Source: Bradyrhizobium oligotrophicum S58 (GTDB lineage Bacteria > Pseudomonadota > Alphaproteobacteria > Rhizobiales > Xanthobacteraceae). From it: a stretch of DNA of 64,000 nt. Below, piece by piece: positions 31,746 to 57,265 of this stretch. The DNA lies in NCBI RefSeq assembly GCF_000344805.1, contig NC_020453.1:6481001-6545000 (forward strand), written 5' to 3'. The notes beneath the pieces were generated by a model. The model had not been told where the DNA came from and did no database searches. It was given only the letters and a program-made list of their open reading frames with translations. A program made the position numbers and the translations under genes. Within the stretch, counting starts at the first letter, position 1; every line of letters starts with the position of its first letter.

Positions 31746-33407
31746 TCACGCCGGCAGCAACTCAGCCGGCGCGGCGATATGCGGCACGGCGTCGACCAGT
31801 TCGCGCGTGTAGTCGGTCTGCGGGTTGGCGAACAGCGCGCGGCTCTCGCCCTGCTCGACGATGACGCCGGTACGCAGCACGATGGTGCGGTCGCACATCA
31901 TGCGCACGACGTTGAGGTCGTGGCTGACGAACAGGAAGGCCAGATTGTCCTCGCGCCGGAGCCGGTTGAGGAGCTGCAGCACCACGGCCTGCACGGAGAC
32001 GTCAAGCGCCGCGGTCGGCTCGTCCAGCACCAGCAGCCGCGGCTTGCAGGCGATGGCGCGGGCGATGCCGACCCGGGCCTTCTGGCCGCCAGAGAGCTGA
32101 TGCGGAAAACGCGGCAGCAGCTCACGCGGGAGGCCAACGCGATCGGCGCATTCCTCGACGCGCTGGCGCAGACGGTCGCCGCCGCGCATGTTCAGCAGCC
32201 GGAGCAAGGGATGGGCGATGCAGTCGAACGCGGTGTAGCGCGGGTTGAGGCTGTCGTTCGGATCCTGGAAGACGATCTGGATGTCTTTCCTCAACGCGGA
32301 GCGGTGGAAGTCGCGTGCCGGGATCTGTCCGATCGATTGCCCGTCGAACAGGATCTCGCCGTCGCTTGGGTCGATGAGACGGCAGATCATCCGCGACGTC
32401 GTACTCTTGCCCGAGCCGCTTTCGCCGACCAGGCCGACGCTTTCACCGCCGCGCATCGTCATTGAGAAATCGGCAACCCCGACCGTGCCATCATCGAAGC
32501 GCTTGCCGATGGCCTTGACGTCGAGCAGCAACGGCGTGCCGTGTGGCGGAGGTGGCAGCTCAGCGACATCGACCAATGGAATGCGCTCGCCATCCGGCAC
32601 CAGGTCCTCGATGCGCGAGGACGCCGTCGGCGACGCCGCGACCAGGCGCTTGGTGTAGGGATGCTGCGGACGGTGGAACAGCGTCAGCGGCGCGGCCTCC
32701 TCGACCAGCCGGCCCTGCTCCATCACGACGACGCGCGCGCAATAGCGTGCGGCGAGCCCGAGATCATGGGTGATCAGGATGGTCGCCATGCCGCGCTCGG
32801 CCGCGATATGCGCGAGCAGGTCCATCACCACCTTTTGCGTGGTGACGTCGAGGCCGGTGGTCGGCTCGTCGGCAATCAGGAGCTGCGGACTGCAGGAGAT
32901 CGCAATCGCGATCATCACGCGCTGGCACATGCCGCCGGACAGCTCGTGCGGATAGGCACTCATGCGCCGCTCGGGATCGCGGATCTGCACGGCGCGCAGC
33001 AGCTGCAACGCCTCGGCCTGCGCCTCCCGCCGCGACAGGCGGCGATGGGCGAGGATCGCATCCGCGATCTGCTGGCCGATGGTGCGGATCGGGTTGAGCG
33101 CCGCACGCGGATTCTGGAAGATCATCGCCATCGCGGCGCCATGCAGGCTGCGCAGATCGGCGCTGCCGGCGCGGGTGATGTCCTGGCCCTTGAAGCGGAT
33201 GCGGCCATCGGTGATGCGGCCGGCCTTGTCGAGCAGATGGGTGATGGCGAAGCCGGTCACCGATTTTCCGGAGCCGCTCTCGCCGACCAGCCCCAGCATC
33301 TCGCCCGGCTTGAGCGACAGCGAGACGCCGCGCACGGCCTCGACGAAGCCGCGGCGGGTCGAGAACGTCACCTTGAGATTTTCGAGCTCCAGCAGCGGCG
33401 CCGTCAT
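31746..33407 (-). CDS. Peptide/nickel-type ABC transporter ATPase, fused DppD-DppF
   Basis: Protein of 553 residues with two full ABC domains, each with GESGSGKS P-loops (first near residue 43, second near 325), signatures YPHELSGGMCQRVMIA and FPHQLSGGQKARVGIA, and Walker B LLIADEPTTGLDV and LLVLDEPTAALDV. Each half ends with the oligopeptide-type extension (HPYTKRLVAASP, TDYTRELVDAVP). ATG 33407 begins MTAPLLELENLKV. The tandem repeat ahead supplies an in-frame alternative ATG at 33434 that would add nine residues (MLGASGDAH). It serves the DppABC system upstream. Confidence 0.92.
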   Translation of the reverse strand: MTAPLLELENLKVTFSTRRGFVEAVRGVSLSLKPGEMLGLVGESGSGKSVTGFAITHLLDKAGRITDGRIRFKGQDITRAGSADLRSLHGAAMAMIFQNPRAALNPIRTIGQQIADAILAHRRLSRREAQAEALQLLRAVQIRDPERRMSAYPHELSGGMCQRVMIAIAISCSPQLLIADEPTTGLDVTTQKVVMDLLAHIAAERGMATILITHDLGLAARYCARVVVMEQGRLVEEAAPLTLFHRPQHPYTKRLVAASPTASSRIEDLVPDGERIPLVDVAELPPPPHGTPLLLDVKAIGKRFDDGTVGVADFSMTMRGGESVGLVGESGSGKSTTSRMICRLIDPSDGEILFDGQSIGQIPARDFHRSALRKDIQIVFQDPNDSLNPRYTAFDCIAHPLLRLLNMRGGDRLRQRVEECADRVGLPRELLPRFPHQLSGGQKARVGIARAIACKPRLLVLDEPTAALDVSVQAVVLQLLNRLRREDNLAFLFVSHDLNVVRMMCDRTIVLRTGVIVEQGESRALFANPQTDYTRELVDAVPHIAAPAELLPA

Positions 33408-33523
33408 GTGCGCATCCCCGGATGCGCCGAGCATTCTGTCGTCTGAGGAGACATCATGTGCGCATCCGGGGATGCGCCGAGCATTCTGTCATCTGAGGAG
33501 ACATCATGTGCGCATCCGGGGAT
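33405..33523. repeat. 50-bp tandem repeat, 2.4 copies, at the dppC/dppDF junction
   Basis: Copies at 33405-33454 and 33455-33504 and a 19-base partial copy at 33505-33523. Each contains a hairpin of the GCGCATCC/GGATGCGC type. The first copy has the inverse centre (CC instead of GG), so the 18-base core is flipped relative to the others. The repeat carries the dppC stop at one end and the dppDF start at the other, which suggests duplication of an original ATGA overlap. Confidence 0.9.
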
Positions 33524-34370
33524 CGAGGATGTCGCGCAGTCCGTCGCCGAGCAGATTAAAGCAAAGCACGGCGCTCATCAGCGCGAGGCCGGGAAACGCC
33601 ACCAACCACCAGCGCCCGGTGGAGATGAAGCGCGCGCCCTCGGCGACCATGATGCCCCATTCCGGCGTCGGCGGCTTGACGCCGAGACCGATGAAGGAGA
33701 GCCCCGCGGCGTTGAGGATCGCCCAGCCGAGATTGAGCGACACCTGCACCGCCATCGCCGGCAGCACGTTCGGCAGCAGGAAGCGCAGCACCACCGCGAC
33801 ATGGCTTTCGCCGCAGGCCCGAGCGGCCTCGACCCAGCCGACGTTCCGGCGGATGTTCACTTCTGCGCGGGCGAAGCGGATGTAGAACGGCAGGTTGATG
33901 ATCGCGGTCGCGATCACGATATTCTCGACGCGGTTGCCGAGCGCGGCGACCATCGCCATCGCCAGCACGAACAGCGGGAACGCCATCAGCACGTCGACGA
34001 AGCGGCCGACCGCCTTGTCGAGCCGGCCGCCGCCATAGCCGCACAAAGCGCCGATCACCGAGCCGATTGCGAACGACACGGCCACCGCGGTCACGGCAAT
34101 CGTGAGATCGAGCCGGCTCGCGACGATCAGGCGGCTCAGCACGTCGCGGCCCAGTTGGTCTGTGCCGAACCAATGCGCCGCGCTCGGCGGCTGCAGCGCC
34201 GCCGGGACGTTGGACGCGATCGGATCGTAAGGCGCGAGCCACGGCGCAAAGATCGCTATCAAGGCGAGCAGCAGCGCGCCACAAGCCGCGATCGCCGTCA
34301 CGGGATTGCCGCGCAGCACGAAGGCGGCGTGGCGCAAAGTCGATGAGGTCTCGATCGTGCTCATGCTCAT
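33504..34370 (-). CDS. dppC: Peptide-type ABC transporter permease, DppC-like
   Basis: Protein of 288 residues with six hydrophobic segments. It has the DppC features LAPYDPIASNVPAALQPPSAAHWFGTDQLGRDVLSR (in short HWFGTDQLGRDVLSR) and the ATPase-coupling loop EAARACGESHVAVVLRFLLPN. ATG 34370 overlaps the dppB stop as ATGA. The C-terminus GLRDILDPRMRT lies within the tandem repeat, and the stop is the first base group of a full copy. Confidence 0.92.
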   Translation of the reverse strand: MSMSTIETSSTLRHAAFVLRGNPVTAIAACGALLLALIAIFAPWLAPYDPIASNVPAALQPPSAAHWFGTDQLGRDVLSRLIVASRLDLTIAVTAVAVSFAIGSVIGALCGYGGGRLDKAVGRFVDVLMAFPLFVLAMAMVAALGNRVENIVIATAIINLPFYIRFARAEVNIRRNVGWVEAARACGESHVAVVLRFLLPNVLPAMAVQVSLNLGWAILNAAGLSFIGLGVKPPTPEWGIMVAEGARFISTGRWWLVAFPGLALMSAVLCFNLLGDGLRDILDPRMRT

Positions 34371-35398
34371 GCGACCGTCGCCCGGGGATCGGCGATACCG
34401 TAGAGCAGGTCGACCAGGAGATTGACGATCACGAAGATCGTCGCCATCAGCAGCACAAAGCCCTGCACCGGCGCGTAGTCCGAGACCAGGAGCGCATCGA
34501 GCGCGTAGGACGCGACGCCGGGCCAGGAGAACACCTTCTCGACCAGCACGTTCGCGCCCAGCATGGTCGAGAACACGATGCCGGCGATGGTGATGACCGG
34601 CAGGACGGCGTTGCGCAGCGCGTAGGTCACGACGATGCGCCACCACGACAGCCCGACCGAGCGCGCCGTGCGGATGAAATCGCTGCCGAGCGACACCAGC
34701 ATCGAGGCGCGGGTGATGCGCGCCAAGGGCGCGATCACGAACAGCGCCATCGTGAAGGCCGGCAGCATCAGCTGCCGCGCCGCCGCCGACCAGCCGTCGA
34801 GATCGCCGGCGAGCAGGAAGTCGATCAGCAGGAAACCGGTGCGCGACGGCGGCAGAGTGGTGAAGATGTCGATCCGTCCTGTGGGGTCCGGGGCGAAGCC
34901 GAGCAGATAGTAGAACACGTAGATCAGCAGCAGGCCGGAGACGAAGGTCGGCACGCAGACGCCGAGCGAACAGAACAGCCGCACGCCATGATCGAGCAGC
35001 GATCCCGGACGGAGCGCCGCGACGACACCGAGCGGCACCGCCGAGACCAGCGCGATCAGCAGCGCCGTCAAGGTCAGCTCCAGCGAGGCCGGCAGCCGCT
35101 CCTTGAGATCCTTGGCCACCGCCTGCCCGGTCATCATCGAGCGGCCGAGATTGCCGCGGGCGACGTCGGCGAGATAGATCGCCAGCTGGTTCGGCAGCGG
35201 CTTGTCCAGCCCGAGCTGCCGGCGGATCACCTCGATCTCCTCCTGGCCGGCATTGGGGCCCGAGGCGAAGAACACCGCGGGATCACCCGGCAGCACGCGC
35301 ATCAAGAGGAAGGTGAAGACCAGCACGCCGAACAGCGCCGGCAGCGACGAGACGAAGCGCCGTCCCGCCCGAGCCAAGGTCGCGCCGATCGTGCCCAT
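34367..35398 (-). CDS. dppB: Peptide-type ABC transporter permease, DppB-like
   Basis: Protein of 343 residues with an N-terminal helix, a long periplasmic loop (RRQLGLDKPLPNQLAIYLADVARGNLGRS region) and five further helices. The coupling loop is FIRTARSVGLSWWRIVVTYALRNAVLP. ATG 35398 has GGAGG 4 bases upstream. It lies 17 bases after dppA and translationally couples to dppC. Confidence 0.92.
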   Translation of the reverse strand: MGTIGATLARAGRRFVSSLPALFGVLVFTFLLMRVLPGDPAVFFASGPNAGQEEIEVIRRQLGLDKPLPNQLAIYLADVARGNLGRSMMTGQAVAKDLKERLPASLELTLTALLIALVSAVPLGVVAALRPGSLLDHGVRLFCSLGVCVPTFVSGLLLIYVFYYLLGFAPDPTGRIDIFTTLPPSRTGFLLIDFLLAGDLDGWSAAARQLMLPAFTMALFVIAPLARITRASMLVSLGSDFIRTARSVGLSWWRIVVTYALRNAVLPVITIAGIVFSTMLGANVLVEKVFSWPGVASYALDALLVSDYAPVQGFVLLMATIFVIVNLLVDLLYGIADPRATVA

Positions 35399-35415: not shown

Positions 35416-37035
35416 CTATTTGCGGCTCAGGTTACGATAATCGACTTGCCGGGTGAACTGGTAGACGTAGCCGTCCACCGTCGGCTGCATCACCGCGTCC
35501 TGCGCCGCCTGCCAGATCGGGATCTGGAACATCTGGTCGAAATGGATGGCGTTGAGCTCCTTGCCCTCTTCCTCGTATTTCGCCTTGTCGGCCTCGAAGC
35601 GCGCCGCCTGGGCCACCTTCTCGAGCTCGGCATTGTCGGTGGAGGAGTAGTTCCAGCGCTGCTTGCCGGTGTAGAAGTTGCGGTAGAAGTAATCGGTCGA
35701 GGGCAGCCAGGCGACGATGCCTTCGGTGAAGAACGGCAGCTTCTTCTCGTTGATCGCGGTCGACATCTGCGCGTCCGGCAGCTTCTGGATGTCCACCGTG
35801 ATGCCGATCTTGCCGAGTTGCTCCTTCACCAGCGCCGCCATCGGCTCGGCGGTCGCGGCCTGGCCGACATTGAAGCTGAAGGTGGTCGCGAAACCCTCGG
35901 GCAGTCCGGCCTCCTTCAGATAGGCCTTGGCTTTCTCCAGATCGAGCTTGATCGGCTGCGGGATCGGATAGCCGCCGCTCGGCGGCTTGCCGTCGGCCCA
36001 GGTCGCACCGTAGAGCGGCGCGCCACGGCCGAACAGCGCCGCCTTGAACATGTCGTCATAGGGCAGCGCATAGGCGATGGCGCGGCGCACATTGACGTTG
36101 TCGAACGGCGGAATGGTGTTGTTCATCGAGATGAAGGTCACCGCATTGTATTGCGGCGTCGAGATCACCTTCAGCTTGCCCTTGCCTTCGAGCGCCTGCA
36201 CGTCGCTGGCCTGGAGGTCGATGACGAGATCGGCATCGCCGCGCTCGACCAGATTGGCGCGCGTCGCCGGCTCGGGCACCGACTGGATGATCAGCCGCTT
36301 GAACGCCGCCGGCTTGTCCGCCGTGCCGCGATTCCAGGCGTCATTGCGCTTGGCGATCACCTGCTCGCCCGGCTTGAAGGTCTCGACGATGTAGGCGCCG
36401 CTGCCGGCCGCGTTCTCCTTGGTCCAGTTCAGCGCCCACGGATCCTCGGCGGTCGCATGCGCCTTGGCGAGCTTGGAGTTGATGATGATCGGATAGACGG
36501 TCGCAAGGTTCGGCAGCGCCAGCTTGTCCGGCTTCGGCAGCGTCACTTCGATGGTCAAGGGATCGATCACCTTGAACTGATCCGCCGAGGTCAGCGAGCC
36601 CGTCAATAGCTGCGCCTTGCCGAGGATCGGCGCGGTGACGCAACGGTCGAGCGACCATTTGACATCCTCGGCCGTGACCGGCGAGCCGTCCTGGAATTTT
36701 GCGTCGGGCCGCAGCTTGAAGGTGATCTTCAAGCCGTCGGGACTGACCTGAAAGGATTCGGCGAGCTCCCCGGTGATGGTGTCCAGATCGAACACCCATT
36801 TACCATTGAGCTGCTTGCGACCGAACGACACCAAGCGATCGTAGCTCGACATCGACAGCGCGAAAGCCTCGCGCGTCGAGCCCGGAATGTTCGGATCGAG
36901 CGTGTTGACGGTGGCGCCGGTGACGTAGCGCAGGGTTTCGGCGCGGCTCTGCGCATGCGCAGCCGGCGCGGCGAACGTCACTGCGAGCAAGGCGGACGCC
37001 GCGAACAACGAACGTTTGGACATCATGTAGCTCAT
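35416..37035 (-). CDS. dppA: Peptide-type ABC transporter substrate-binding protein (SBP_bac_5)
   Basis: Protein of 539 residues. A Sec signal (MSKRSLFAASALLAVTFAAPAAHAQ) precedes the family-5 binding fold, with TLDPNIPGSTREAF, YDRLVSFG, FKLRPDAKFQDGSPVTAEDVKWSLDR and GSGAYIVETFKPGEQV. The start is taken at ATG 37035 (MSYMMSKRS); ATGs at 37026 and 37023 are alternatives. Binding proteins of this group take up peptides, but also opines, nickel chelates and other amides, so the ligand is open. A consensus sigma-54 promoter lies 77-92 bases upstream, which points to nitrogen control. Confidence 0.93.
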   Translation of the reverse strand: MSYMMSKRSLFAASALLAVTFAAPAAHAQSRAETLRYVTGATVNTLDPNIPGSTREAFALSMSSYDRLVSFGRKQLNGKWVFDLDTITGELAESFQVSPDGLKITFKLRPDAKFQDGSPVTAEDVKWSLDRCVTAPILGKAQLLTGSLTSADQFKVIDPLTIEVTLPKPDKLALPNLATVYPIIINSKLAKAHATAEDPWALNWTKENAAGSGAYIVETFKPGEQVIAKRNDAWNRGTADKPAAFKRLIIQSVPEPATRANLVERGDADLVIDLQASDVQALEGKGKLKVISTPQYNAVTFISMNNTIPPFDNVNVRRAIAYALPYDDMFKAALFGRGAPLYGATWADGKPPSGGYPIPQPIKLDLEKAKAYLKEAGLPEGFATTFSFNVGQAATAEPMAALVKEQLGKIGITVDIQKLPDAQMSTAINEKKLPFFTEGIVAWLPSTDYFYRNFYTGKQRWNYSSTDNAELEKVAQAARFEADKAKYEEEGKELNAIHFDQMFQIPIWQAAQDAVMQPTVDGYVYQFTRQVDYRNLSRK

Positions 37036-37111
37036 CGCCCCTGTTCCCTCGGTAGTCTCGAAATCCGGGACCAAATCCCCTGCCAGCAGTCACCGGCGAC
37101 CCCAGCGCAGC

Positions 37112-37127
37112 AGCAAATCACGTGCCA
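37112..37127 (-). promoter_or_regulatory. Sigma-54 (-24/-12) promoter of dppABC-DF
   Basis: Reading on the minus strand, TGGCACGTGATTTGCT fits the RpoN consensus TGGCACG-N4-TTGCW at every fixed position. Transcription would begin near 37101, giving a leader of about 66 bases before ATG 37035. No NtrC-type enhancer was recognised nearby. Confidence 0.8.
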
Positions 37128-37184
37128 TCGAAGATGACGAGAGGGTTCTGATTGATGCGGCGCCGCACGCGCGCGCGGGAAGGT

Positions 37185-38612
37185 TCAGCGCTCGGCTGCG
37201 GCATCACGCCGAACGGTGGCCTGCTTCACGTCGTAGACTTGGAAGGCCGCCCAATGCGCGTCGATGTCGGCCTTGAACAGCCCCCGCGTCAGGCCGTGCA
37301 CCAGCTTCGGCACCGCGGTCGTCATCGCGTTGATGGACGAGCCCGACGCGCCGAAGCTCATCGTGGATGCGATGGCGAATACGTGGATGTCGCTGATCCA
37401 CGGCGTCTCGCCTTGCCTGCGCTCACACAACGCATAGTCGTCGGCGAGGTAGGGGAAAGCGCCGAGCCGCTCGTTGCGCTCGCTTCCATCAGGCGTGTAG
37501 CGATCGGACCATCGGGCGATGTTCGCGGCAAAGCGCCTCAATTCCGGACGCTGCGTAAAATCCATCGTGATGCCGGTGGCGCCGATCACGAAATCGGCCA
37601 TGATCTCGCCCTTCGCCGTCTGCAGCACCAAGCCATCAGCGGTGTCCCGCGCGCTCACGACGGGCGCTCCCTCATGCAGATGGAACACGGAATGAACGGC
37701 GCAGCGATCATAGGTGTGCTGCGGAAAGCCCTCGCGCAATTCGAGGACCGCGCGCATGAAGCGCCAGCGCCAGGCATCGTCGAGCTCGGAGAAATGCCGG
37801 AGGAAGCCGCGGAACGTCAGCCAGCGATACGGCTGGATCAGCTGGATCTCGGCACGGCGGCACAGCAGATCGACGCGCGCGGCGCCCGCCTCGAGCGCGA
37901 CGGCCGCATTGTCGAAGGCCGACGCACCGGCGCCGATCACCGCCACACGGCGGCCGCGTAACGCACCGAAGTCGATCTCCGTCCCCGAATGAACGCAGCG
38001 CGTCGCCGGCAGATGGCGCAGCGGCGCCGGAATGCTCCAACCGCCCATGCCTTCCTGTCCGGTTGCCAGCACGATCTTGCGCGCATACAGCACCGTCTCG
38101 CCATCCTTGCTGCGCACCGTCGCCCGCAGCAGGCCGTCGGCCGCCGGCGCGATGTCGACGACCTCGCAGCCGTTGCGGACGGGAAGGTCGAGCACCTCGC
38201 GATACCACACGAGGTACGCTGCCCAATATTCGCGCGGAATGAGATCAAGATCGCGCCAGCTCTGTTCGCCGAATTTCGCCTCGTGCCACGCCTGATAGGT
38301 CAGACTCGGAATGTCGAGATCCGGTCCGGTGAAGTCCTTCGGGCTGCGCAAGGTCGGCATGCGCGCATAGGTCCGCCAAGGCCCTTCACGGCCGTGCTGC
38401 GCCTTGTCGAGCACCAGGATGTTGGTGACGCGCGAGCGCAGCAGCCCGAACGCGGTCGCCAGTCCCGACTGCCCGCCACCGACGATCAGCACATCGACGG
38501 CAGGTTGGCCGTCGGGACCGGTCCGCGGCTTCAGCCATTGCGCACTCGGATGCGCAATCCTTGCGAGATCGGCGCGGACTTGCGCAGTGAGCACGGCCAG
38601 ATCGCTGCTCAT
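37185..38612 (-). CDS. FAD/NAD(P)-binding monooxygenase-like oxidoreductase
   Basis: Protein of 475 residues. The first Rossmann motif is VLIVGGGQSGLATAFGLL (42-59) for FAD and the second is VAVIGAGASAFDNAAVAL for NAD(P), with ATG near IGATGITMDF, as in flavin-containing monooxygenases. The FMO fingerprint is only partial (CVHSGTEIDF). It could hydroxylate or Baeyer-Villiger-oxidise a nitrogenous or carbonyl compound. ATG 38612 overlaps the SDR stop (ATGA), so the two are co-translated. The substrate is unknown; the hydantoinase and peptide-type transporter nearby suggest a role in modifying an imported amide. Confidence 0.8.
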   Translation of the reverse strand: MSSDLAVLTAQVRADLARIAHPSAQWLKPRTGPDGQPAVDVLIVGGGQSGLATAFGLLRSRVTNILVLDKAQHGREGPWRTYARMPTLRSPKDFTGPDLDIPSLTYQAWHEAKFGEQSWRDLDLIPREYWAAYLVWYREVLDLPVRNGCEVVDIAPAADGLLRATVRSKDGETVLYARKIVLATGQEGMGGWSIPAPLRHLPATRCVHSGTEIDFGALRGRRVAVIGAGASAFDNAAVALEAGAARVDLLCRRAEIQLIQPYRWLTFRGFLRHFSELDDAWRWRFMRAVLELREGFPQHTYDRCAVHSVFHLHEGAPVVSARDTADGLVLQTAKGEIMADFVIGATGITMDFTQRPELRRFAANIARWSDRYTPDGSERNERLGAFPYLADDYALCERRQGETPWISDIHVFAIASTMSFGASGSSINAMTTAVPKLVHGLTRGLFKADIDAHWAAFQVYDVKQATVRRDAAAER

Positions 38613-39370
38613 GCTGCCAGCCAGCCGCCGTCGACCGGCAGCACGATGCCGGTCGTGAACGAAGCCTCGTCGCTGGCGAGAAACAGCGCCGCGGCGGCGA
38701 CTTCGTCGGCCTCGCCGAAGCGCTTCATGGCATGGCGCTGGCGCGAGGCTTCGCGCACGGCTTGCGAATCGGCATGGCGGGCGAAGCTCCTGCGCAGCAG
38801 CGGCGTGTCGATCGCGCCCGGCGCCAGCGCATTGACGCGGATGCCGTCGGGCGCGAAGTCGACCGCCATCGTCCGCGTCAGGCTGATGATCGCGCCCTTG
38901 GCTGCGATATAGGCGCTGTTGCCCTTGCCGCCGGCGACAGCGAGTTGCGACGCCACGGTGATGATGGACCCTGACTTTTGCCGCTGCATGATCGGCACCG
39001 CGACCTTGGCCCACAGCCAGGTGCCGCCGACATTGGCGCTGAACACTGCATCCCAATCGGCGGGATCGGTGCTGACGACGGTGCCGCCACAGGAGAAGCC
39101 GGCCGCGGTCATCAGCACGTCGAGGCGGCCGCGCGTCGCAGTCACGCTCTCGATCGTCGACCGGGCGAAGTCGGCGTCGCCGACATCGCCGACATGGACG
39201 CTGCCGTCGCCCCCTGCGGCGCGCAGCATTGCGAGCGTCTCGGCAGCGCCTGCAGCATCGCGATCGACCAGCGCGAGATGCGCGCCTTCGCGCGCGAACA
39301 TTGCCGCACTGGCGCGCCCGATGCCCGAGCCACCGCCAGTGATGACCGCGACCTTTCCCGCCAGCCTCAT
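38609..39370 (-). CDS. Short-chain dehydrogenase/reductase
   Basis: Protein of 253 residues (MRLAGKVAVITGGGSGIGRASA). SDR features are TGGGSGIG, VGDVGD, catalytic Ser in TVASQLAV and YIAAK. The usual NNAG is MTAAG here, a mild deviation. ATG 39370 lies one base after the epimerase stop; an ATG at 39391 inside that gene is the alternative. It is flanked by an epimerase-type gene and a flavoprotein gene in an overlapping operon. Substrate unknown. Confidence 0.87.
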   Translation of the reverse strand: MRLAGKVAVITGGGSGIGRASAAMFAREGAHLALVDRDAAGAAETLAMLRAAGGDGSVHVGDVGDADFARSTIESVTATRGRLDVLMTAAGFSCGGTVVSTDPADWDAVFSANVGGTWLWAKVAVPIMQRQKSGSIITVASQLAVAGGKGNSAYIAAKGAIISLTRTMAVDFAPDGIRVNALAPGAIDTPLLRRSFARHADSQAVREASRQRHAMKRFGEADEVAAAALFLASDEASFTTGIVLPVDGGWLAA

Positions 39371-39371
39371 C

Positions 39372-40343
39372 TCAGTCTCTCCCGTATTCATCGAACCAGC
39401 GGCCGAAATGCTCGGCGGACGCTGCGCAATCGAAACGCGCGCGCCAAGCGAACTCGTCCGCCAACCGCGTCGTCGACAGGCGTCCACGGTTCGGCGCAAA
39501 CACCGGCACGGTCGGCGCTTCGTCCCGGTCCGCTAGCCGGCAGACGAAGCCGGGCCGGTCTAGCGCGAAGGCGCGGCCCCAAGCTTCAGCCGTGAACGTG
39601 GCTTCGTTGGAAATGTTGTAGAGCGTGTGCTGCGGCCGCTCCGCCGCCAGCAACAAGCAGACGGCATCGGCGACATCGACTGCGTAGACCCAGTCCTTGT
39701 CGCCCGGCTCGTTCAAAAATGCCGGCTCGTTGCGCGCGCAGCAGGTTGCGATCAGCGCCTGCGGCGACGGCGTGTCACGCACGCCGCCGCCACGCTCGAA
39801 CGGGCCGAACACCGCCGAAAGTCTCACGCTGATCACGTCGGTCTGCCACAGATCCGACAGCCGCGCGGCGACGCGCTCGGAGGCAAACTTGCTGATCGCA
39901 TAGAGCGACACCGGCTCGCATGGCGTGGTCTCCTCCAGCACGGCGAAGCGCTGGCCGCTGGCGCCATAGGCGGCCGCCGATGACAGGTTGATCACGCGGC
40001 GGACATCGGCGCTGCGCGCAGCCTGCAGGATCGGCACCTGCGCCAGCAGGTTGACCGCGAGAATGCGCTCGGGGTCGGCGGCATCGCGCTCAGGACCCGC
40101 GGTGATCGCCGCCCCCAGCACGACGGCATCGCAGCCGCCGGCTACGGCGGCCGCGACAGCGCTCGCGTCGGTGACATCGCCGGTGATGACGTGCAGACGC
40201 TCACCATGCGACGCGAAGGCGCGCTGCGCGGCCTTCGGCAAGGGAGCCGCATCGAAGATGGTCACGACATGCCCGCGCTCGAGCAGACCTTGCGCGACGT
40301 TGAGCCCGACGAAGCCCGCGCCACCGAAGATCAGGACATGCAT
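39372..40343 (-). CDS. NAD-dependent epimerase/dehydratase family protein
   Basis: Protein of 323 residues of the extended SDR family: GGAGFVGLNVAQGLLERGH for NAD, INLSSAAAYG, and the catalytic pair in LYAISKFASERVA. The C-terminal half (GDKDWVYAVDVADAV, YNISNEATFTAEAWG) fits sugar or uronate dehydrogenases/epimerases. It starts the three-gene set epimerase-SDR-flavoprotein. A repeat-filled gap of 234 bases separates it from the hydantoinase on the same strand, so it may be a continuation of that operon. Confidence 0.84.
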   Translation of the reverse strand: MHVLIFGGAGFVGLNVAQGLLERGHVVTIFDAAPLPKAAQRAFASHGERLHVITGDVTDASAVAAAVAGGCDAVVLGAAITAGPERDAADPERILAVNLLAQVPILQAARSADVRRVINLSSAAAYGASGQRFAVLEETTPCEPVSLYAISKFASERVAARLSDLWQTDVISVRLSAVFGPFERGGGVRDTPSPQALIATCCARNEPAFLNEPGDKDWVYAVDVADAVCLLLAAERPQHTLYNISNEATFTAEAWGRAFALDRPGFVCRLADRDEAPTVPVFAPNRGRLSTTRLADEFAWRARFDCAASAEHFGRWFDEYGRD

Positions 40344-40398
40344 GGAATCGCCCCTTCCCCGCGCACCGATCGAAGATGGGCATCCAGCTCTCTCCACA

Positions 40399-40521
40399 CG
40401 TCATGGCCGGGCGCCGTCCCGGCCATCCACGTCGTTCGTCGTCGAGAGAAGGTGGATGCCCGGGCCTTCGCCGCGCTGAAGGGGCTTCGGCCCCGCAGGC
40501 GGGTCAAGCCCGAGCATGACG
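40399..40521. repeat. Palindromic intergenic repeat, family C-like
   Basis: Bounded by CGTCATG (40399-40405) and CATGACG (40515-40521), with internal complementary parts GGCCGGGC...GTCCCGGCC and GGGGCTTCGGCCCC. It fills the gap between the epimerase and hydantoinase genes. The GGGTCAAGCCCGAGCATGACG ending is a form I recall from many Bradyrhizobium intergenic spaces. Confidence 0.7.
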
Positions 40522-40577
40522 ACTGAGTACGATGTGAAAGCGAGACCATCACGAGCGATTTCACCGCGCCCTTATCT

Positions 40578-42047
40578 TCACAGCAGCTTCGCCCCGAAAT
40601 TCTGTTCGGGATCCATGTCTGGCACCAGGCGCCCGATCGGCTTCGCGGCCTCGCCGCCGCTGCGCGCGAGGAACTGGCCGGAGCCCGGCCGCGCTGAGAT
40701 CTTGCCGCCGTCGACGATGACGCGGCCGCGGGACAGCACCGTCACCGGCCAGCCCTGCACGCTACGGCCGGCAAACGGCGTGTAGCCGGCAAGGTCATGC
40801 ATCATGGCATCGCTGATGGTGACGCGCTTGTCCGGATCCCACAGCGCGATGTCGGCATCGGCGCCGATCGCGATCGCGCCTTTCTTCGGATGCAGATTGT
40901 AGATCTTCGCTGGCGCCGTCGCGGTGAGCTCGACGAACTTGTTGAGGCCGAGCCGCCCCTTCGACACCATCGCATCGAACAGCAGCGGCAACCGCAGCTC
41001 CAGCCCCGGCAGGCCGTTGGCGACCTGCTTGAAATTGGGATTGGGGCCGGCGCGCAGCTTGCCGGTCTCGTCGAACCGGTACGGCGCGTGGTCAGACGAG
41101 ATGGTCTGCAGATCGCCGAGCGACAACGCCTGCCACAGCGCCTCCTGGTCGGGCGCGCGGCGCGGCGGCGGGCTGCACATCCACTTCGCGCCCTCGATGC
41201 CGGGCTTGTCGAGATCCTCAGCCGTCATGAACAGATATTGCGGACAGGTTTCCGCGAACACCTTCAGTCCCTGCCCGCGCGCATCGCGGATCACCTTGGC
41301 GCCCTCAGCCGTCGAGACGTGGAAGATCATGATCGGCTGATCGACCAGCGCGGCCATGCCGATGAGACGGTTGAAGGCCTCGGCTTCGGAGAAGCGGGCG
41401 TGGCTGATGGCATGATATTTCGGCGCGGTGTAGCCGCGCGCCAGCAGCCGCTTGACCATCCAGGAGATGATGCCGTGGTTCTCGGCGTGCGCACACAGCA
41501 TCGCGCCGCCCTCGCGCGCGGCGACGAGAATGTCGAGCAGCGGCTCGTCATCGATCTTGAGTCGGTCATAGGTCATGAAGATCTTGATCGAGCCGTGGCC
41601 CTGGCGGATCAGTGCCGGCAGGTCGCGCTCCAGCGTCTCCCTGGTCGGATCGGCGACGATCATGTGGAACGCGTAGTCGATGACCGCGCCCTTGCGCGCC
41701 AGCCCGTGATAGTCCTCGACCACCTGCGACAGCTGCATCCCGACATGCTGGGCCGCGAATGAGATCACGCTGGTGGTGCCGCCGAACGCGGCGGAGGTGG
41801 TGGCGCTCTCGAACGTGTCGGCGTTGACGATGCCCGCCGCCGACAGCTGCTCGATATGGCAATGGCTGTCGACGCCGCCAGGCAGCACGAACTTGCCGCG
41901 CGCATCGATCTCGCGCTTGGCGGGCCCAAGGCCGCGGCCGATCGCCGCGATGCTCTCGCCTGATATGGCGATATCGGCCTCGAACATGTCGGTCGTGGTG
42001 GCGACGCGCCCTCCCCGGATGATCAGGTCATAGGCCGGCTCGGTCAT
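40578..42047 (-). CDS. Dihydropyrimidinase/D-hydantoinase-type cyclic amidohydrolase
   Basis: Protein of 489 residues of the cyclic amidohydrolase family. All binuclear-metal ligands can be placed: H62 and H64 (DSHCHIEQ), carbamylated K155 (SIKIFMTY), H187 (CAHAENHG), H243 (FHVSTAEG) and D319 (SSDHAPY). It opens dihydropyrimidines or 5-substituted hydantoins to N-carbamoyl amino acids. GAGGAG lies 6 bases upstream of ATG 42047. It is divergent from an Asp/hydantoin racemase gene and close to two N-carbamoylase-like genes, the classic hydantoin-utilisation set. A weak -24/-12 element lies at 42120-42135. Confidence 0.93.
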   Translation of the reverse strand: MTEPAYDLIIRGGRVATTTDMFEADIAISGESIAAIGRGLGPAKREIDARGKFVLPGGVDSHCHIEQLSAAGIVNADTFESATTSAAFGGTTSVISFAAQHVGMQLSQVVEDYHGLARKGAVIDYAFHMIVADPTRETLERDLPALIRQGHGSIKIFMTYDRLKIDDEPLLDILVAAREGGAMLCAHAENHGIISWMVKRLLARGYTAPKYHAISHARFSEAEAFNRLIGMAALVDQPIMIFHVSTAEGAKVIRDARGQGLKVFAETCPQYLFMTAEDLDKPGIEGAKWMCSPPPRRAPDQEALWQALSLGDLQTISSDHAPYRFDETGKLRAGPNPNFKQVANGLPGLELRLPLLFDAMVSKGRLGLNKFVELTATAPAKIYNLHPKKGAIAIGADADIALWDPDKRVTISDAMMHDLAGYTPFAGRSVQGWPVTVLSRGRVIVDGGKISARPGSGQFLARSGGEAAKPIGRLVPDMDPEQNFGAKLL

Positions 42048-42119
42048 CGCGATCTCCTCGTCAGTTCTGCCATATGGAACACCGCGTCGTTGCGGGGCGC
42101 CGTCGCGTCAGCGCATGAT

Positions 42120-42135
42120 GGCATCATCGGCACCA
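42120..42135 (-). promoter_or_regulatory. Weak sigma-54-like element upstream of the hydantoinase gene
   Basis: On the minus strand TGGTGCCGATGATGCC keeps the essential GG and GC at the right spacing but departs from consensus in four other places. A transcript would start near 42109, about 60 bases before ATG 42047. It overlaps the 13-base dyad ATGATGGCATCAT at 42115-42127. Proximity to the good element on the other strand is the main reason to report it. Confidence 0.35.
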
Positions 42136-42147
42136 TTGCGTCATCCG

Positions 42148-42163
42148 TGGCATAGTGATTGCC
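42148..42163 (+). promoter_or_regulatory. Sigma-54 (-24/-12) promoter of the racemase gene
   Basis: TGGCATAGTGATTGCC agrees with TGGCAY-N5-TTGC, with GG and GC ten bases apart as required. Transcription would start near 42174, about 30 bases upstream of ATG 42203. Confidence 0.7.
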
Positions 42164-42202
42164 TGTCACGCGCCGTCAACACAGAAGAAGCAGGTCCCTC
42201 CC

Positions 42203-42862
42203 ATGTCCCGCCCGCGCATCACCGTGATCAACCCGAACTCCAACCAGATGGTCACGGATGGGCTCGCCGCGGCACTGACGCCACTGATGTTTGCGGACGG
42301 ACCGGAGATCGTTTGCGAGACCTTGAAGGAAGGGCCGTTCGGCGTCGAGAGCCAGAAGGACGCTGACAGCGTCACCCTACCGCTGCGGCGTTTCGTCGAG
42401 GGCGACAATGCATCGAGCGCCTTCGTGATCGCCTGCTACAGCGACCCGGGACTGCATGTCTGCCGCGAGGCCACGACGCGCCCGGTACTCGGCATCGCCG
42501 AGTGCGGCGTGCTGACCGCGCTGACCCGCGCCGACACGTTCGGCGTGATCGCGATCGCGCAGCGCTCGATCCGCCGCCACATCCGCTATCTCCGCCAGAT
42601 GGGGCTGATGGACCGGCTCGCCGCCGAGCGGCCGCTCGACATGACGGTCGCGGAAACCGCTTCAGGCGAAGGCACCCTGGCAAAGATGATCGCGGTCGGC
42701 CGCGCGCTGAAGGACGAAGACGGCGCCGGCGCCATCGTCATGGGCTGCGCCGGCATGGCGCGCCATCGCAAGAACCTCGAGGACGCGCTCGGCATTCCCG
42801 TCATCGACCCGACCCAGGCCGCGGTGACGATGGCGCTGGGCGCGGTGGCGTTTGCGGGGTGA
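42203..42862 (+). CDS. Asp/Glu/hydantoin racemase family protein
   Basis: Protein of 219 residues. The two catalytic cysteines expected in the family are C78 (FVIACYSDPG) and C182 (VMGCAGM), and INPNSNQMVTDG at the N-terminus fits hydantoin racemases. It would interconvert D and L forms of 5-substituted hydantoins so that a stereospecific hydantoinase/carbamoylase pair can use both. Allantoin racemase and aspartate racemase are alternatives. The ribosome site before ATG 42203 is weak. Confidence 0.88.
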   Translation: MSRPRITVINPNSNQMVTDGLAAALTPLMFADGPEIVCETLKEGPFGVESQKDADSVTLPLRRFVEGDNASSAFVIACYSDPGLHVCREATTRPVLGIAECGVLTALTRADTFGVIAIAQRSIRRHIRYLRQMGLMDRLAAERPLDMTVAETASGEGTLAKMIAVGRALKDEDGAGAIVMGCAGMARHRKNLEDALGIPVIDPTQAAVTMALGAVAFAG

Positions 42863-42906
42863 GTAGCGATTTCGGGCAGGCTCCGCTGACTGCGCCATAT
42901 TAAGCT

Positions 42907-43021
42907 GTCGTCCCGGCCTTGAGCCGGGACCCATAACCACCGTCCGTGGTGAGGCAGGCAACTGCCAGTTACGTCCCTCGATAGCTTCCGCGGTATGGGT
43001 CCCCGCGTTCGCGGGGACGAC
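42907..43021. repeat. Palindromic intergenic repeat, family C
   Basis: Outer arms GTCGTCCCGGC-type (42907 onward) and GCGGGGACGAC (to 43021), with second-level arms GGGACCCATA and TATGGGTCCC. It fills the gap between two convergent genes (racemase and amidase) and may terminate both. This form is, from memory, frequent in Bradyrhizobium. Confidence 0.7.
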
Positions 43022-43091
43022 ACCATTATTGTAGCGCTTTAGAGCACAACAACCTTGTATGGCTCATCTCATCAGCTCAGACAGCGCCGCT

Positions 43092-44018
43092 TCACTCCGG
43101 GGGCACCGCGCCCGTCCGACTCGTGATCAAACCATAATGCTCGATGCGGCGATGCCGGGCGAAGTCGAAGATCGTTTCCTTGCCGAACCTGGTCGCATCG
43201 AGGTCGCACGGCACCACCAGCACCTCGTCCCCTTCCGTCACCGCCTCAGCGACGATCTCGCCATCGGGATTGACGATCAGGCTACCGCCGAACAGCGCAT
43301 GCCCGTCCTCGACGCCGGCCTTGGCGACGGCCACAACCCAGCAGGAGTTCTGATAGGCGCCGGCCTGCACGGAAAGACGATTGTGAAACAGTCGCTGCGT
43401 GACGCCTTCGGCCGGCTTCTGCGCATTCACCGACGGCGTGTTGTAGCCGAGCACGACCATCTCGACGCCCTGCAGGCCCATCACGCGATAGGTCTCCGGC
43501 CAGCGGCGATCGTTGCAGATCGCCATGCCGATGATGCCGCCGAGATTGCGCCACACCGGAAAACCGAGATCGCCCGGCTCGAAATAGCGCTTTTCCAGAT
43601 GCTGATGGCTGCGCTCGGTATCGTATTCGACATGCCCGGGCAGATGCACCTTGCGGTACTTGCCGACGATATTGCCATCACGGTCGGTCATGATCGCCGT
43701 GTTGAAATGATGTCCATCCGGCGTGAGCTCGGCATAGCCAAAGTTCATCGCGATGCTGTGTTGCCTGGCCCGGTCGAACAGCGGCTGCACGGCCGCGTTC
43801 GGCATCGTCGTTTCGAACCAGGCGTCGACTTCCCTCTGATCCTCCATGTACCAGCGCGGAAAGAACGTCGTCAGCGCCAGCTCGGGATAGACGATGAGAT
43901 CGGCGCCCTTGCGCTTGGCCTCGTCGAGCAGCGCGATCATGCGCGCCACGACCGCCTCACGGCTGTCGGCCCGCTGAATCGGTCCCATCTGGGCGGCGGC
44001 AACGTTGATGACGCGCAT
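43092..44018 (-). CDS. Carbon-nitrogen hydrolase, N-carbamoyl-D-amino acid hydrolase-like
   Basis: Protein of 308 residues of the nitrilase superfamily. The catalytic triad is E46 (VYPELALTTFFPRW), K123 (YRKVHLPGH) and C168 (AICNDRRWPE). The TTFFPRW and LPGH contexts and the length match D-carbamoylases, which turn N-carbamoyl-D-amino acids into D-amino acids, CO2 and ammonia. GGAG lies 5 bases upstream of ATG 44018. It is downstream of the CodA-like gene with a hairpin repeat between. A close paralogue lies at 56137-57087. Confidence 0.9.
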   Translation of the reverse strand: MRVINVAAAQMGPIQRADSREAVVARMIALLDEAKRKGADLIVYPELALTTFFPRWYMEDQREVDAWFETTMPNAAVQPLFDRARQHSIAMNFGYAELTPDGHHFNTAIMTDRDGNIVGKYRKVHLPGHVEYDTERSHQHLEKRYFEPGDLGFPVWRNLGGIIGMAICNDRRWPETYRVMGLQGVEMVVLGYNTPSVNAQKPAEGVTQRLFHNRLSVQAGAYQNSCWVVAVAKAGVEDGHALFGGSLIVNPDGEIVAEAVTEGDEVLVVPCDLDATRFGKETIFDFARHRRIEHYGLITSRTGAVPPE

Positions 44019-44043
44019 GATTGATCTCCGATTTAAGTTCCAC

Positions 44044-44118
44044 CGTCATTGCGAGCGAAGCGAAGCAATCCAGGGCCGCGCAAGAACTCTGGATTGCTTC
44101 GCTTCGCTCGCAATGACG
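44044..44118. repeat. Palindromic intergenic repeat, family B copy 1
   Basis: A perfect 30-bp inverted repeat (44044-44073 with 44089-44118) and a 15-base loop. The arm begins CGTCATTGCGAGCGAAGCG. It lies between the CodA-like gene and the downstream amidase gene, where it could stabilise or weaken the joint message. A less perfect copy is at 48165-48245. Confidence 0.9.
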
Positions 44119-44153
44119 CGTGTTGAAACACCTTCATTCGATGACCGCCTTCG

Positions 44154-45383
44154 TCACACCGGCCGATGCAGCACCGGCCGGGTGCGCGAGAACGACGGGC
44201 GGCCGCGCTTGAGGCCCCACAACGGCTGCGCCAGGGTCGCGATCGCCTCGGTCGGACTGCGCGCATCGATGCAGACGAGATCGGCCGGTACACCGACCTT
44301 GATGCCGTAATCACGAAGCCGCATCAGCTTCGCCGCATCGTGCGTGACCATGTCGAGGCAGCCGGCGAGATGATCACCCCGCGAGACGTGGCAGACATTG
44401 GCATAGAGGTTGGCCATCCGGATCAGCGAGCCGTCGCCATACGGCGTGAACGGGTTGAGCACGTTGTTGGTCGAGATCGAGCAGGTGACGCCCGCGGCGC
44501 GCAGCGGCTCCAGCGGCACCACGCCGCGCGGGATCGCACGATCCTGCCGGCGCCCCATCAGATGCAGGTCGGTCGAGGGCAGCACGGTGACCGCGACCCC
44601 GGCATTGGCGAGCTGTCCGGCGATCGCATTGAAGCGGTCAGGCGGTAGCAGTGACAGCTGCGTGACATGGCCGACCGCGACGCGGCCGCCCCAGCCATAC
44701 TCCTCGGTCTTGCGGCAGACATATTCGATCTGCATGTGATCGAGCGTCTCGGCGAGATCGAGATGCATGTCGATATCGACATCGAACTCGCGCGCGATCG
44801 CGAAGATGCGATCGATCTGCGCCGGCGGATCGGTGTCGAAATAGGGCGCGGCACCGATGGTGCGCGCGCCCCGGCGCAGGCCTTCGATCAGCAGTTCCTC
44901 GGTCCCGGGATAATTGGTGAGACCTTCCTGCGGAAACACGCAGATCTCGAGATCGAGTGCCCAGGCATAGTCGCGCGCGAGCTGCTGGATCGCTTCGAAG
45001 CCAATGAAGCCGATGCCGGGATCGAGCTCGACATGCGTGCGCATGCGCATCGTGCCGTGGCTGACGCAGCGCTCCACGGTCTGCTTCGCCCTGGTGTAGA
45101 CGTCGTCCGCCGTGAAGTTGCACTTCGCCGCTGCCGTCTCGCGGACGGCTTCAGCGACCGTCCCTTCCCTGATGGTGCAGCGATCGAGGATGCAGGTCTT
45201 GTCGAGATGGATATGGGTCTCGATCAGGCCGGGGACGAGCAAGCAATGTTCGGCGTCACGCTCCTCGCCTTCCGCCCGCAACGAAGATTCGATTGCGACG
45301 ATCGAGCCGTTGGCGATGCCGATATCGGCGCGCCGCAGCTCGCTTTGCTGCGCCAGCACCGCGTTGCGTATGATCAGGTCCAT
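44154..45383 (-). CDS. Cytosine deaminase-like amidohydrolase with altered active site
   Basis: Protein of 409 residues, alignable over most of its length with E. coli CodA (ETHIHLDKTC, RTHVELDPG, FPQEGLTNYPGTEELL). Metal histidines are present at H57, H59, H207 and H239. However, the CodA catalytic Glu (HCDE) is HLDL here (L210), and the HDD pair containing the metal-bound Asp is NN (N306, N307). So deamination by the CodA mechanism is doubtful; hydrolysis of another amide, or a lost activity, is possible. It heads a short minus operon with the amidase at 43092, behind a consensus sigma-54 promoter. Confidence 0.82.
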   Translation of the reverse strand: MDLIIRNAVLAQQSELRRADIGIANGSIVAIESSLRAEGEERDAEHCLLVPGLIETHIHLDKTCILDRCTIREGTVAEAVRETAAAKCNFTADDVYTRAKQTVERCVSHGTMRMRTHVELDPGIGFIGFEAIQQLARDYAWALDLEICVFPQEGLTNYPGTEELLIEGLRRGARTIGAAPYFDTDPPAQIDRIFAIAREFDVDIDMHLDLAETLDHMQIEYVCRKTEEYGWGGRVAVGHVTQLSLLPPDRFNAIAGQLANAGVAVTVLPSTDLHLMGRRQDRAIPRGVVPLEPLRAAGVTCSISTNNVLNPFTPYGDGSLIRMANLYANVCHVSRGDHLAGCLDMVTHDAAKLMRLRDYGIKVGVPADLVCIDARSPTEAIATLAQPLWGLKRGRPSFSRTRPVLHRPV

Positions 45384-45442
45384 GCCGTCTTCGCCGCCGA
45401 GGAGTCCATCCGGGCGCCAAGCTGGCGGCCCGGCGGCAAAAA

Positions 45443-45458
45443 GGCAAGCGCCGTGCCA
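45443..45458 (-). promoter_or_regulatory. Sigma-54 (-24/-12) promoter of the CodA-like gene
   Basis: On the minus strand TGGCACGGCGCTTGCC matches TGGCACG-N4-TTGC without mismatch. Start of transcription is expected near 45432, about 49 bases before ATG 45383. It shares the 258-base divergent gap with the urc1 promoter. Confidence 0.78.
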
Positions 45459-45567: not shown

Positions 45568-45645
45568 ATGGAAAACGTGAACGCGTTCTGCTCAGGCCCG
45601 TCGTCAAGGCGGGCCGTTGCCGTTTTGGGGGTCGCTGTCCGATGA
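45568..45645 (+). CDS. Possible 25-residue leader peptide overlapping urc1
   Basis: An ATG at 45568 opens a 25-codon frame (MENVNAFCSGPSSRRAVAVL...) whose TGA overlaps the urc1 start as ATGA. Inside it lies the hairpin GGCCCG/CGGGCC (45595-45615), followed 7 bases later by TTTT, similar to an attenuator. No ribosome site precedes it, but the predicted transcript start coincides with the ATG. It may couple or gate translation of urc1. It could equally be chance. Confidence 0.35.
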   Translation: MENVNAFCSGPSSRRAVAVLGVAVR

Positions 45646-46898: not shown

Positions 46899-46909
46899 GC
46901 GCCGGGATC

Positions 46910-48133: not shown

Positions 48134-48140
48134 GGGGTTT

Positions 48141-48165
48141 GGAGCAAGCTCGCGGACCTTGCTCC
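48141..48165 (+). terminator. Hairpin just after urc4
   Basis: GGAGCAAG (48141-48148) pairs with CTTGCTCC (48158-48165), an 8-bp stem with a 9-base loop, 8 bases past the urc4 stop. There is no T-run, and a second, larger palindromic repeat begins at its last base. It may reduce read-through into the uracil phosphoribosyltransferase gene. Confidence 0.45.
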
Positions 48166-48245
48166 GTCGTTGCGAGCGCAGCGAAGCAATCCAGGGCCAA
48201 ACAGGAAGCCTGGATTGCTTCGTCGCTTCTCTCCTCGCAATGACG
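48165..48245. repeat. Palindromic intergenic repeat, family B copy 2
   Basis: Arms CGTCGTTGCGAGCGCAGCG... (from 48165) and ...CTCGCAATGACG (to 48245) resemble the 44044 copy, but the right arm carries a small insertion (CGTCGCTTCTCTCCTCGC). This gives an imperfect stem. Confidence 0.8.
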
Positions 48246-48261
48246 AAGCTGATCAGTTGCA

Positions 48262-48351
48262 CGTAGGATGGGCAAAGCGCAGCGTGCCCACCCTTCCGAG
48301 CTGAGCTAAAATCGCGGTGGGCACGGCGCTTCGCGCCTTTGCCACCTCACG
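48262..48351. repeat. Palindromic intergenic repeat, family A copy 2
   Basis: CGTAGGATGGGCA...GCGTGCCCACC on the left and GGTGGGCACGGC...GCCACCTCAC on the right resemble the element at 1758-1876. It ends directly before the ribosome site of the uracil phosphoribosyltransferase gene, so the two repeats B and A together fill the urc4-upp gap. Confidence 0.7.
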
Positions 48352-48363
48352 GAGATGAAAGCC

Positions 48364-51953: not shown

Positions 51954-51976
51954 CAGATGTCCTCACTACGTGTCTA

Positions 51977-53666: not shown

Positions 53667-53670
53667 GATC

Positions 53671-56110: not shown

Positions 56111-56136
56111 GCTGCGACACTTCCCCATGCGAGCAA

Positions 56137-57087: not shown

Positions 57088-57121
57088 ACTCTGCCTCCAA
57101 TCTATGCGTCATGCCTTTTCG

Positions 57122-57142
57122 GCGGGCGGCAGGACCGCCCGC
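57122..57142. promoter_or_regulatory. GC-rich hairpin in the amidase leader region
   Basis: GCGGGCGG pairs with CCGCCCGC around a 5-base loop, 35-55 bases upstream of the TTG start, inside the divergent gap. No T-run follows on either strand, so it is not a terminator. It may be a structured leader or chance in GC-rich DNA. Confidence 0.3.
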
Positions 57143-57265
57143 TGCGACGCGCAAAAGAAGGATCAATGAAGCTAAACCGGCGCAGGAATTGCAACCAGTC
57201 GGGACGGGCTCGGTCTATGATATTTTGGCCGAGACCATCACCCGGGCTTATAGGGCGACCATGCC

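Follow-up and report, generated by a model that had tools for sequence, protein, structure and literature searches.

The locus considered here lies in a 64,000-nucleotide stretch of the Bradyrhizobium oligotrophicum S58 genome (positions 6481001–6545000 of 8.26 Mb; this whole stretch is hereafter called the window) and raises the question of whether sigma-54 (RpoN) controls a peptide-type importer, hydantoin-converting enzymes and a CodA-like amidohydrolase as one unit. A sequence-only reading of this DNA had proposed that three −24/−12 sites, located in front of dppA, a racemase gene and the CodA-like gene, and a weaker fourth in front of the hydantoinase gene imply joint nitrogen or effector control of an otherwise undescribed cyclic-ureide scavenging system. 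In the best reading of our results, the locus is known in kind, representing a sigma-54-driven importer operon accompanied by two promoters limited to some clades. The three well-formed and conserved −24/−12 promoters were retained from the earlier interpretation, whereas the joint regulon including ring opening, the nitrogen control and the novelty of the system were not.

The Three −24/−12 Sites in the Window

The three sites were recovered at exactly the positions and strands proposed for them (Table 1). As had been suggested, the background was determined by scoring all window positions on both strands with a sigma-54 weight matrix built from general promoter frequencies that were not fitted here. 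The sites before dppA, the CodA-like gene and the racemase gene ranked first, second and third window-wide, followed by a position with 13.1 bits; many equally good intragenic matches, named beforehand as counter-evidence, were not found in the window. All three sites feature GG at −24 and GC at −12 with ten bases in between, and each lies upstream of its gene on the same strand, as claimed, at distances of 76 nt (dppA), 39 nt (racemase) and 59 nt (CodA-like gene) from the start codon. The last value refers to the ATG at 45383; a mechanically called frame that begins at TTG 45479 covers the CodA-like site.

The assumption that such a set is unlikely by chance was confirmed for the exact pattern TGGCAYRNNNNTTGC, which matched three times in the window compared to 0.10 expected matches, and none of 100 dinucleotide shuffles reached three. 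With second-order Markov sequences as the null, 64 kb would be expected to contain 0.62 matches of at least 15.4 bits, and again none of 100 runs reached three. When one mismatch to the pattern was allowed, the excess was gone (six observed vs. 4.77 expected matches in the window). The fourth site, claimed for the hydantoinase gene (42120..42135, minus strand; TGGTGCCGATGATGCC), was rejected at 2.55 bits, so that the original observation holds for three of the four sites.

Conservation of the Putative Importer Promoter

Conservation was evaluated in a footprinting set of 80 loci around racemase homologues (out of 388 relatives found), 76 of them being labelled Bradyrhizobium. Some of these loci are short, and genes with less than 150 nt of upstream sequence, an identity below 50% or a coverage below 40% were dropped before counting; the number of cases therefore differs by gene. 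A dppA site of at least 13 bits was detected in all 66 related loci with a usable upstream region (65 labelled Bradyrhizobium and one, L085, labelled Frankia). The sites comprise 15 distinct 16-mers with nine invariant positions (TGGC and TTGCT), the mean identity being 0.50 for the 25 bases before and 0.70 for the 20 bases after the site.

A wider survey of 149 genomes of the family, in 27 of which dppA was matched at the chosen threshold, provided 30 loci for examination. Homologues with at least 74% identity possessed the site in 13 out of 13 cases, originating from five genera including Bradyrhizobium (13.7–19.2 bits; 20–79 nt in front of the gene). The six paralogues at 56–61% identity had no site. 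All eleven paralogues at 40–43% identity reached at least 14.5 bits; eight of them keep the GC of the −12 element, and GA replaces it in L188, L191 and L195. The comparison shows that the predicted promoter before dppA is retained in every close homologue examined, in Bradyrhizobium as well as in four further genera. The importer itself is patchy within the genus, since three of seven same-genus genomes contain a close homologue, two only the approximately 42% kind and two none at the threshold. In B. ivorense (L061), a dpp operon was not detected next to the hydantoinase gene; another binding-protein gene, of the SBP_bac_5 kind as judged by eye, is located there instead and has its own −24/−12 site (position 8169, minus strand; 18.6 bits).

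Sites before the Racemase and CodA-Like Genes

The racemase site was detected in 29 of the 80 loci at a threshold of 11 bits. GGCA and TTGC are retained in all 29 loci, the surroundings averaging 0.56–0.58 identity. None of the 46 loci L079–L124, labelled ‘japonicum-type’ in this analysis, possesses the site, and it is degenerate in L045 and L051. In L150, a −24/−12 match is located in the gap before the racemase gene but faces an apparent LysR regulator, as judged by eye. A perfect GCAC-N5-GTGC precedes the −24 element in 12 of the 29 racemase upstream regions (L057–L077), representing a possible activator site of one lineage.

The CodA-like gene was found in just seven of the 80 loci. Six of these hold orthologues with 87–92% identity, all featuring the site, and the seventh (L052), without a site, holds only a 53% relative. 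Among 30 of the listed homologue matches that were examined, 26 of the 29 with 53–57% identity scored at most 9.4 bits, the remaining three, from one other genus, having strong sites; sigma-54 control as an ancestral trait of the CodA-like family is therefore not supported. The putative racemase and CodA-like promoters are thus confined to part of the relatives. Over all 80 loci (1.53 Mb), 149 sites of at least 14 bits were counted, of which 66 precede dppA, 28 the racemase gene, six the CodA-like gene and one the D-carbamoylase gene, the others being located inside the SDR gene (16), inside other genes (six) or elsewhere (26).

Genes without a Site

The hydantoinase upstream region did not reach 13 bits in any of 78 loci and reached 11 bits in one, and the D-carbamoylase gene was preceded by a site of at least 13 bits in one of 79 loci. 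At this latter threshold, no sites were found before urc1, the first gene of a URC-type cluster described below (0/15), or before the genes for the epimerase (0/73), the oxidoreductase (0/69), the SDR protein (0/72), dppDF (0/61), dppB (0/64) and the amidohydrolase at 49000 (0/11). Hydantoin opening, which had been counted into the sigma-54 regulon, is not supported as a member by these data, and the same applies to carbamoyl cleavage by the D-carbamoylase. Since neither the hydantoinase nor the D-carbamoylase gene has a conserved site, sigma-54 control would not act on ring opening as such.

These counts also bear on the earlier proposal of a single cyclic-ureide scavenging regulon, which would comprise the three sites together with the intervening genes. 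Although three correctly oriented sites lie within 8.4 kb, and the racemase gene is accompanied by the hydantoinase gene in 78 and by the D-carbamoylase gene in 79 of the 80 loci, such a regulon is considered unlikely in view of the missing hydantoinase and D-carbamoylase sites, the rarity of the CodA-like gene in the set (which includes short loci), its lack of the key CodA residues and an importer with no assignable ligand. Uptake appears to be the conserved target, and putative control of racemisation and of the CodA-like gene is limited to some lineages.

Genome-Wide Sigma-54 Pattern

Within the whole genome, TGGCAYRNNNNTTGC matched exactly 37 times, compared to 11 matches for the reversed pattern. 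For 35 of the 37 matches, the start of a coding open reading frame (ORF) on the same strand follows within 350 nt, the exceptions being L013, which belongs to the nif region, and L019, which lies within a gene in antisense orientation. In the reversed-pattern controls, two of the 11 matches had a start downstream, both inside the gene holding the match. Eight of the 37 matches fall within a mechanically called ORF, six of them in the sense of that ORF, for which a later start is available further downstream (the CodA-like site included), and two antisense (L010 and L019).

Five of the 28 SBP_bac_5 genes in the genome have an exact site (those after L003, L006, L025 and L127, and dppA), compared to approximately 0.02 expected by random placement arithmetic (37 × 28 × 350/16.5 million); the dppA operon is one of these five. 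They were placed by coordinates, 22 of the proteins downstream of the 37 sites were Pfam-scanned (L005 and L018 yielding nothing at 1e-10), and for the rest, the targets were assessed by eye or left unnamed. Other sites in the genome precede nifH, nifB, a homocitrate-synthase-like gene and genes for a PTS IIA protein, UrtA, a formate/nitrite transporter, Hydantoinase_A, an amidase, an isochorismatase-type hydrolase, and BMP-type and other binding proteins. Very probably, the locus is part of a larger sigma-54 programme that has already been recognised.

Weighing of the Evidence and the Activator

Several points weigh against regarding the three sites as promoters with a nitrogen-related function. 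Owing to their relatedness, the 66 dppA loci (37 with one and the same 16-mer) represent fewer than 66 independent cases. At 11 bits, the racemase site is missing in 51 of the 80 loci, and it is absent from all 28 racemase relatives in other genera (30 loci were surveyed, counting the window and a genome of its own genus), so that the data do not support an ancient origin of sigma-54 control over the racemase. Good intragenic matches do exist, since those in the SDR gene of relatives (at least 14 of the 16 being antisense) include matches at 15.2 bits; a good score by itself is therefore no proof. No NtrC-type box (TGCACC-N5-GGTGCA) with up to three mismatches was found before any of the three window sites, and none with up to two mismatches in the relatives (66 dppA, 29 racemase and six CodA-like upstream regions). 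Finally, the orthologous dppA of Bradyrhizobium sp. DOA9 (L104) has a site, yet it does not appear in the RpoN targets of Table 1 in the study on this strain (PMC13207237).

Some of these points would be expected if only the dppA promoter were functional and the racemase and CodA-like matches represented decaying or chance sequences, with no local regulon at all: the siteless ‘japonicum-type’ loci, the degenerate sites in L045 and L051, the siteless racemase relatives of other genera and the 15.2-bit matches inside the SDR gene. This explanation is nevertheless judged quite improbable, given the GGCA and TTGC retained in 29 of 29 racemase sites amid much less conserved surroundings, the site present in all six CodA-like orthologues at 87–92% identity and the 30-fold excess of exact matches in the window over shuffles. 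The three sites are, in our judgement, highly likely to be sigma-54 promoters of unequal spread.

Regarding the activator, no gene for a sigma-54 activator was detected in the window; the closest one is located approximately 74 kb beyond its right end. The genome encodes 11 strong sigma-54 activators, among them NifA (L031), NtrC (L032) and NtrX (L041), as assigned by curated models, and an unnamed NtrC-like response regulator scoring below the NtrC cut-off (L034); the further scans covered the activators except for L033 and L036. The best NtrC box matches at the dppA, racemase and CodA-like sites have four mismatches each, which is the commonest value in shuffles, compared to two at urtA; three mismatches were found in eight upstream regions of the relatives. 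The NifA box, presumably TGT-N10-ACA, served as a positive control and was perfect at six of six nif-region sites and at none of the 31 others; it does not occur before any of the three window sites. Perfect dyads were also sought de novo among 18 upstream regions chosen as nitrogen-type; at most three were shared, which does not exceed the base-shuffled level. The search for NtrC or other enhancer-binding sites, recommended in the sequence-only reading, thus recognised neither an NtrC nor a NifA box, and the nitrogen control that the sites had been taken to imply is not supported, with no NtrC box above shuffle level and no activator gene detected in the window.

Acting under nitrogen limitation, NtrC is tentatively favoured as the likeliest activator, at somewhat less than an even chance; it is preferred since nitrogen-scavenging genes are numerous among the targets of the other genome sites, but the sequence lends it no direct support. 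A dedicated or orphan activator responding to a substrate rather than to nitrogen status, which would change only the activation step, is a reasonable possibility. It would agree with the missing NtrC boxes at three sites in a genome with perfect NifA boxes at all nif-region sites, with the 11 strong activators including at least one unnamed NtrC-like protein, and with the dyad in 12 of the 29 racemase upstream regions, but the window yielded no activator gene (the nearest lying approximately 74 kb beyond it), the perfect dyad occurs in none of the 66 dppA and none of the six CodA-like upstream regions, and many of the other targets are general nitrogen-scavenging genes. A wider proposal is rather doubtful: some of the SBP_bac_5 importers of this bacterial family, along with their catabolic neighbours, would form a sigma-54 regulon with an activator other than NtrC, marked by neither an NtrC nor a NifA box. 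In this regulon, the importer promoter would accompany its operon from genus to genus, and catabolic genes, for instance those for the racemase and the CodA-like protein, would be recruited to it in individual lineages.

Proposed Model

In the preferred reading of promoters of unequal spread, the promoter before dppA would head a peptide-type ABC importer operon (dppA-B-C-DF), a second promoter would serve the divergent racemase gene in some Bradyrhizobium lineages, and a third, in the clade of the window, would drive the CodA-like amidohydrolase gene beside a URC-type pyrimidine cluster. Sigma-54 control would thereby concern uptake first and racemisation in some clades, but not ring opening as such. 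The sigma-54 RNA polymerase may wait at these promoters as a closed complex until an activator encoded elsewhere opens it. The importer would then take up a peptide-like or ureide compound, and hydantoinase, racemase and D-carbamoylase could convert 5-substituted hydantoins to D-amino acids, NH3 and CO2. The locus would represent one of several nitrogen-scavenging importers placed under sigma-54 in this genome. This part of the model, concerning activator, uptake and catabolism, is less sure than the assignment of the promoters.

The putative importer promoter is of interest for its conservation across five genera with a core invariant within the 66 nearest loci. Moreover, close homologues with a site, 56–61% paralogues without and 40–43% paralogues with one provide a natural comparison, by which the activator of Bradyrhizobium nitrogen-scavenging importers becomes directly testable. 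The distribution of the other two sites suggests that individual lineages gained or lost sigma-54 control over catabolic genes.

Genes of the Locus and Its Surroundings

Table 1. Putative promoters and genes of the sigma-54-associated locus (window positions).
Feature	Position	Strand	Evidence
Putative sigma-54 promoter, dppABC(DF) importer operon	37112..37127	-	TGGCACGTGATTTGCT; 19.2 bits
Putative -24/-12 promoter, racemase gene	42148..42163	+	TGGCATAGTGATTGCC; 15.4 bits
Putative -24/-12 promoter, CodA-like amidohydrolase gene	45443..45458	-	TGGCACGGCGCTTGCC; 16.1 bits
Fused dppD-dppF type ATPase	31746..33434	-	two PF00005 stretches + oligo_HPY
dppC-type permease	33504..34391	-	PF00528 + PF12911
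dppB-type permease	34367..35398	-	PF00528 + PF19300
dppA, extracellular solute-binding protein family 5 (SBP_bac_5)	35416..37035	-	PF00496, E 6.6e-88
FAD/NAD(P)-dependent oxidoreductase	37185..38612	-	PF13738, PF13454; directly upstream of dppA promoter
SDR oxidoreductase	38609..39370	-	PF13561; NF004791 above cut-off
NAD-dependent epimerase/dehydratase family protein	39372..40343	-	PF01370
D-hydantoinase / dihydropyrimidinase	40578..42047	-	TIGR02033 612.9 bits (cut-off 393); D-hydantoinase 1nfg 386 bits
Hydantoin/allantoin-type racemase, Asp/Glu racemase superfamily	42203..42862	+	PF01177; putative hydantoin racemase 3qvj 92 bits
D-carbamoylase (N-carbamoyl-D-amino-acid hydrolase family)	43092..44018	-	6lei 414.8 bits, 1erz 344 bits
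CodA/AtzC-like amidohydrolase without key CodA residues	44154..45383	-	1k6w 172 bits

The gene order dppDF-C-B-A, oxidoreductase, SDR, epimerase, hydantoinase, racemase and D-carbamoylase is maintained in most of the 80 loci, and the oxidoreductase gene adjoins dppA in most relatives. The DppA protein scored below the cut-off of all ten NCBIfam families listed for dppA. The fused ATPase exceeded several NCBIfam cut-offs (including those for NikD, NikE and CntD/CntF), and scores were obtained for both of its halves; we read these nickel, staphylopine and other assignments as uninformative, because several cut-offs are passed at once and no ligand can be named from them. As far as the protein families indicate, no ligand can be assigned to this importer of the SBP_bac_5 class.

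D-hydantoinase, D-carbamoylase and hydantoin racemase are co-located as a predicted hydantoin-utilisation triad, the match of the racemase being the weakest; judged by family assignment, the enzymes of the locus are the known set. For the D-carbamoylase, N-carbamoylputrescine amidase was the best NCBIfam match but fell well short of the cut-off (139.7 vs. 410), and the best N-carbamoylputrescine amidohydrolase chain reached only approximately 75 bits. Repeat-like elements were noticed by eye in the gap between the CodA-like and D-carbamoylase genes (44049–44116, a long inverted repeat) and between the hydantoinase and epimerase genes (40397–40525). Rfam and tRNA scans of the window yielded nothing at the thresholds applied.

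When the CodA-like protein was aligned to E. coli cytosine deaminase, Leu was found at E217 and Asn-Asn at D313-D314, positions that we assume to be catalytic in CodA (Glu217 and Asp313-Asp314). Of 120 close relatives, 118 have Asn-Asn, and two did not fit the search expression. The protein also scored below the cytosine deaminase cut-offs, and a function as plain cytosine deaminase was rejected on account of these key residues. Its amidohydrolase family is large, at least 8000 candidate relatives having been scored.

Divergently from the CodA-like gene, genes for a GTP_CH_N/GTP cyclohydrolase II-like protein, a DUF1688 protein and uracil phosphoribosyltransferase (UPRT) lie in a row (45642–48993) and represent a candidate URC-type pyrimidine degradation cluster. 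The GTP_CH_N and DUF1688 families presumably correspond to URC1 and URC4, respectively. The three genes resemble the URC set for pyrimidine breakdown, which was described in yeast (PMC7530994). A second nitrogen-scavenging block (49000–58249) contains an amidohydrolase, an SBP_bac_5 protein and a PuuE-like deacetylase. Amino-acid ABC genes, a second carbon-nitrogen hydrolase and a LysR regulator were additionally recognised there by eye, and the sigma-54 matrix scores in this block did not exceed 9.9.

Comparison with Known Systems

The classical pathway of D-hydantoinase, D-carbamoylase and hydantoin racemase is that of the Agrobacterium hyu genes. The present locus likewise holds the three enzyme families side by side; compared to the classical pathway, a peptide-family ABC importer and putative sigma-54 promoters are added. 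Full-text searches of openly licensed papers yielded none that describes the locus as controlled by sigma-54. The system can nevertheless hardly be called otherwise undescribed, since the enzyme set is known and RpoN boxes before hydantoin genes as well as RpoN-dependent peptide importers of Bradyrhizobium have been published (PMC5979394, PMC12316311, PMC13207237).

In a sigma-54 survey from 2025, hydantoin racemase and ABC transport COGs are among the enriched targets (PMC12316311). The survey differs from our analysis in providing family-level statistics and no locus, and ‘Bradyrhizobium’ is absent from its main text. In the NtrC regulon table for Burkholderia cenocepacia, a dihydropyrimidinase gene is given with a value of −3.7 (PMC5491218). 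Closer to the present case, several peptide importers of Bradyrhizobium sp. DOA9 were reduced in rpoN mutants, with boxes listed for some of them; as in our locus, these are peptide-type importers with −24/−12 boxes, and they are referred to as nitrogen scavenging (PMC13207237). The box TGGCACGAACCTTGC given there before BRADOA9_v1_40023 is identical to the box of the 40–43% paralogues L192–L194.

For Paraburkholderia phymatum, an RpoN box was described before the hydantoinase operon Bphy_6150-52, and a hydantoin-utilization gene of B. diazoefficiens is cited as a direct RpoN target in the same source (PMC5979394). Both cases agree with the present one in that RpoN boxes stand before hydantoin genes in rhizobia. 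The P. phymatum box, however, precedes the hydantoinase operon, whereas the putative promoters described here lie before the importer operon and, in some clades, the racemase gene, and not before the hydantoinase gene.

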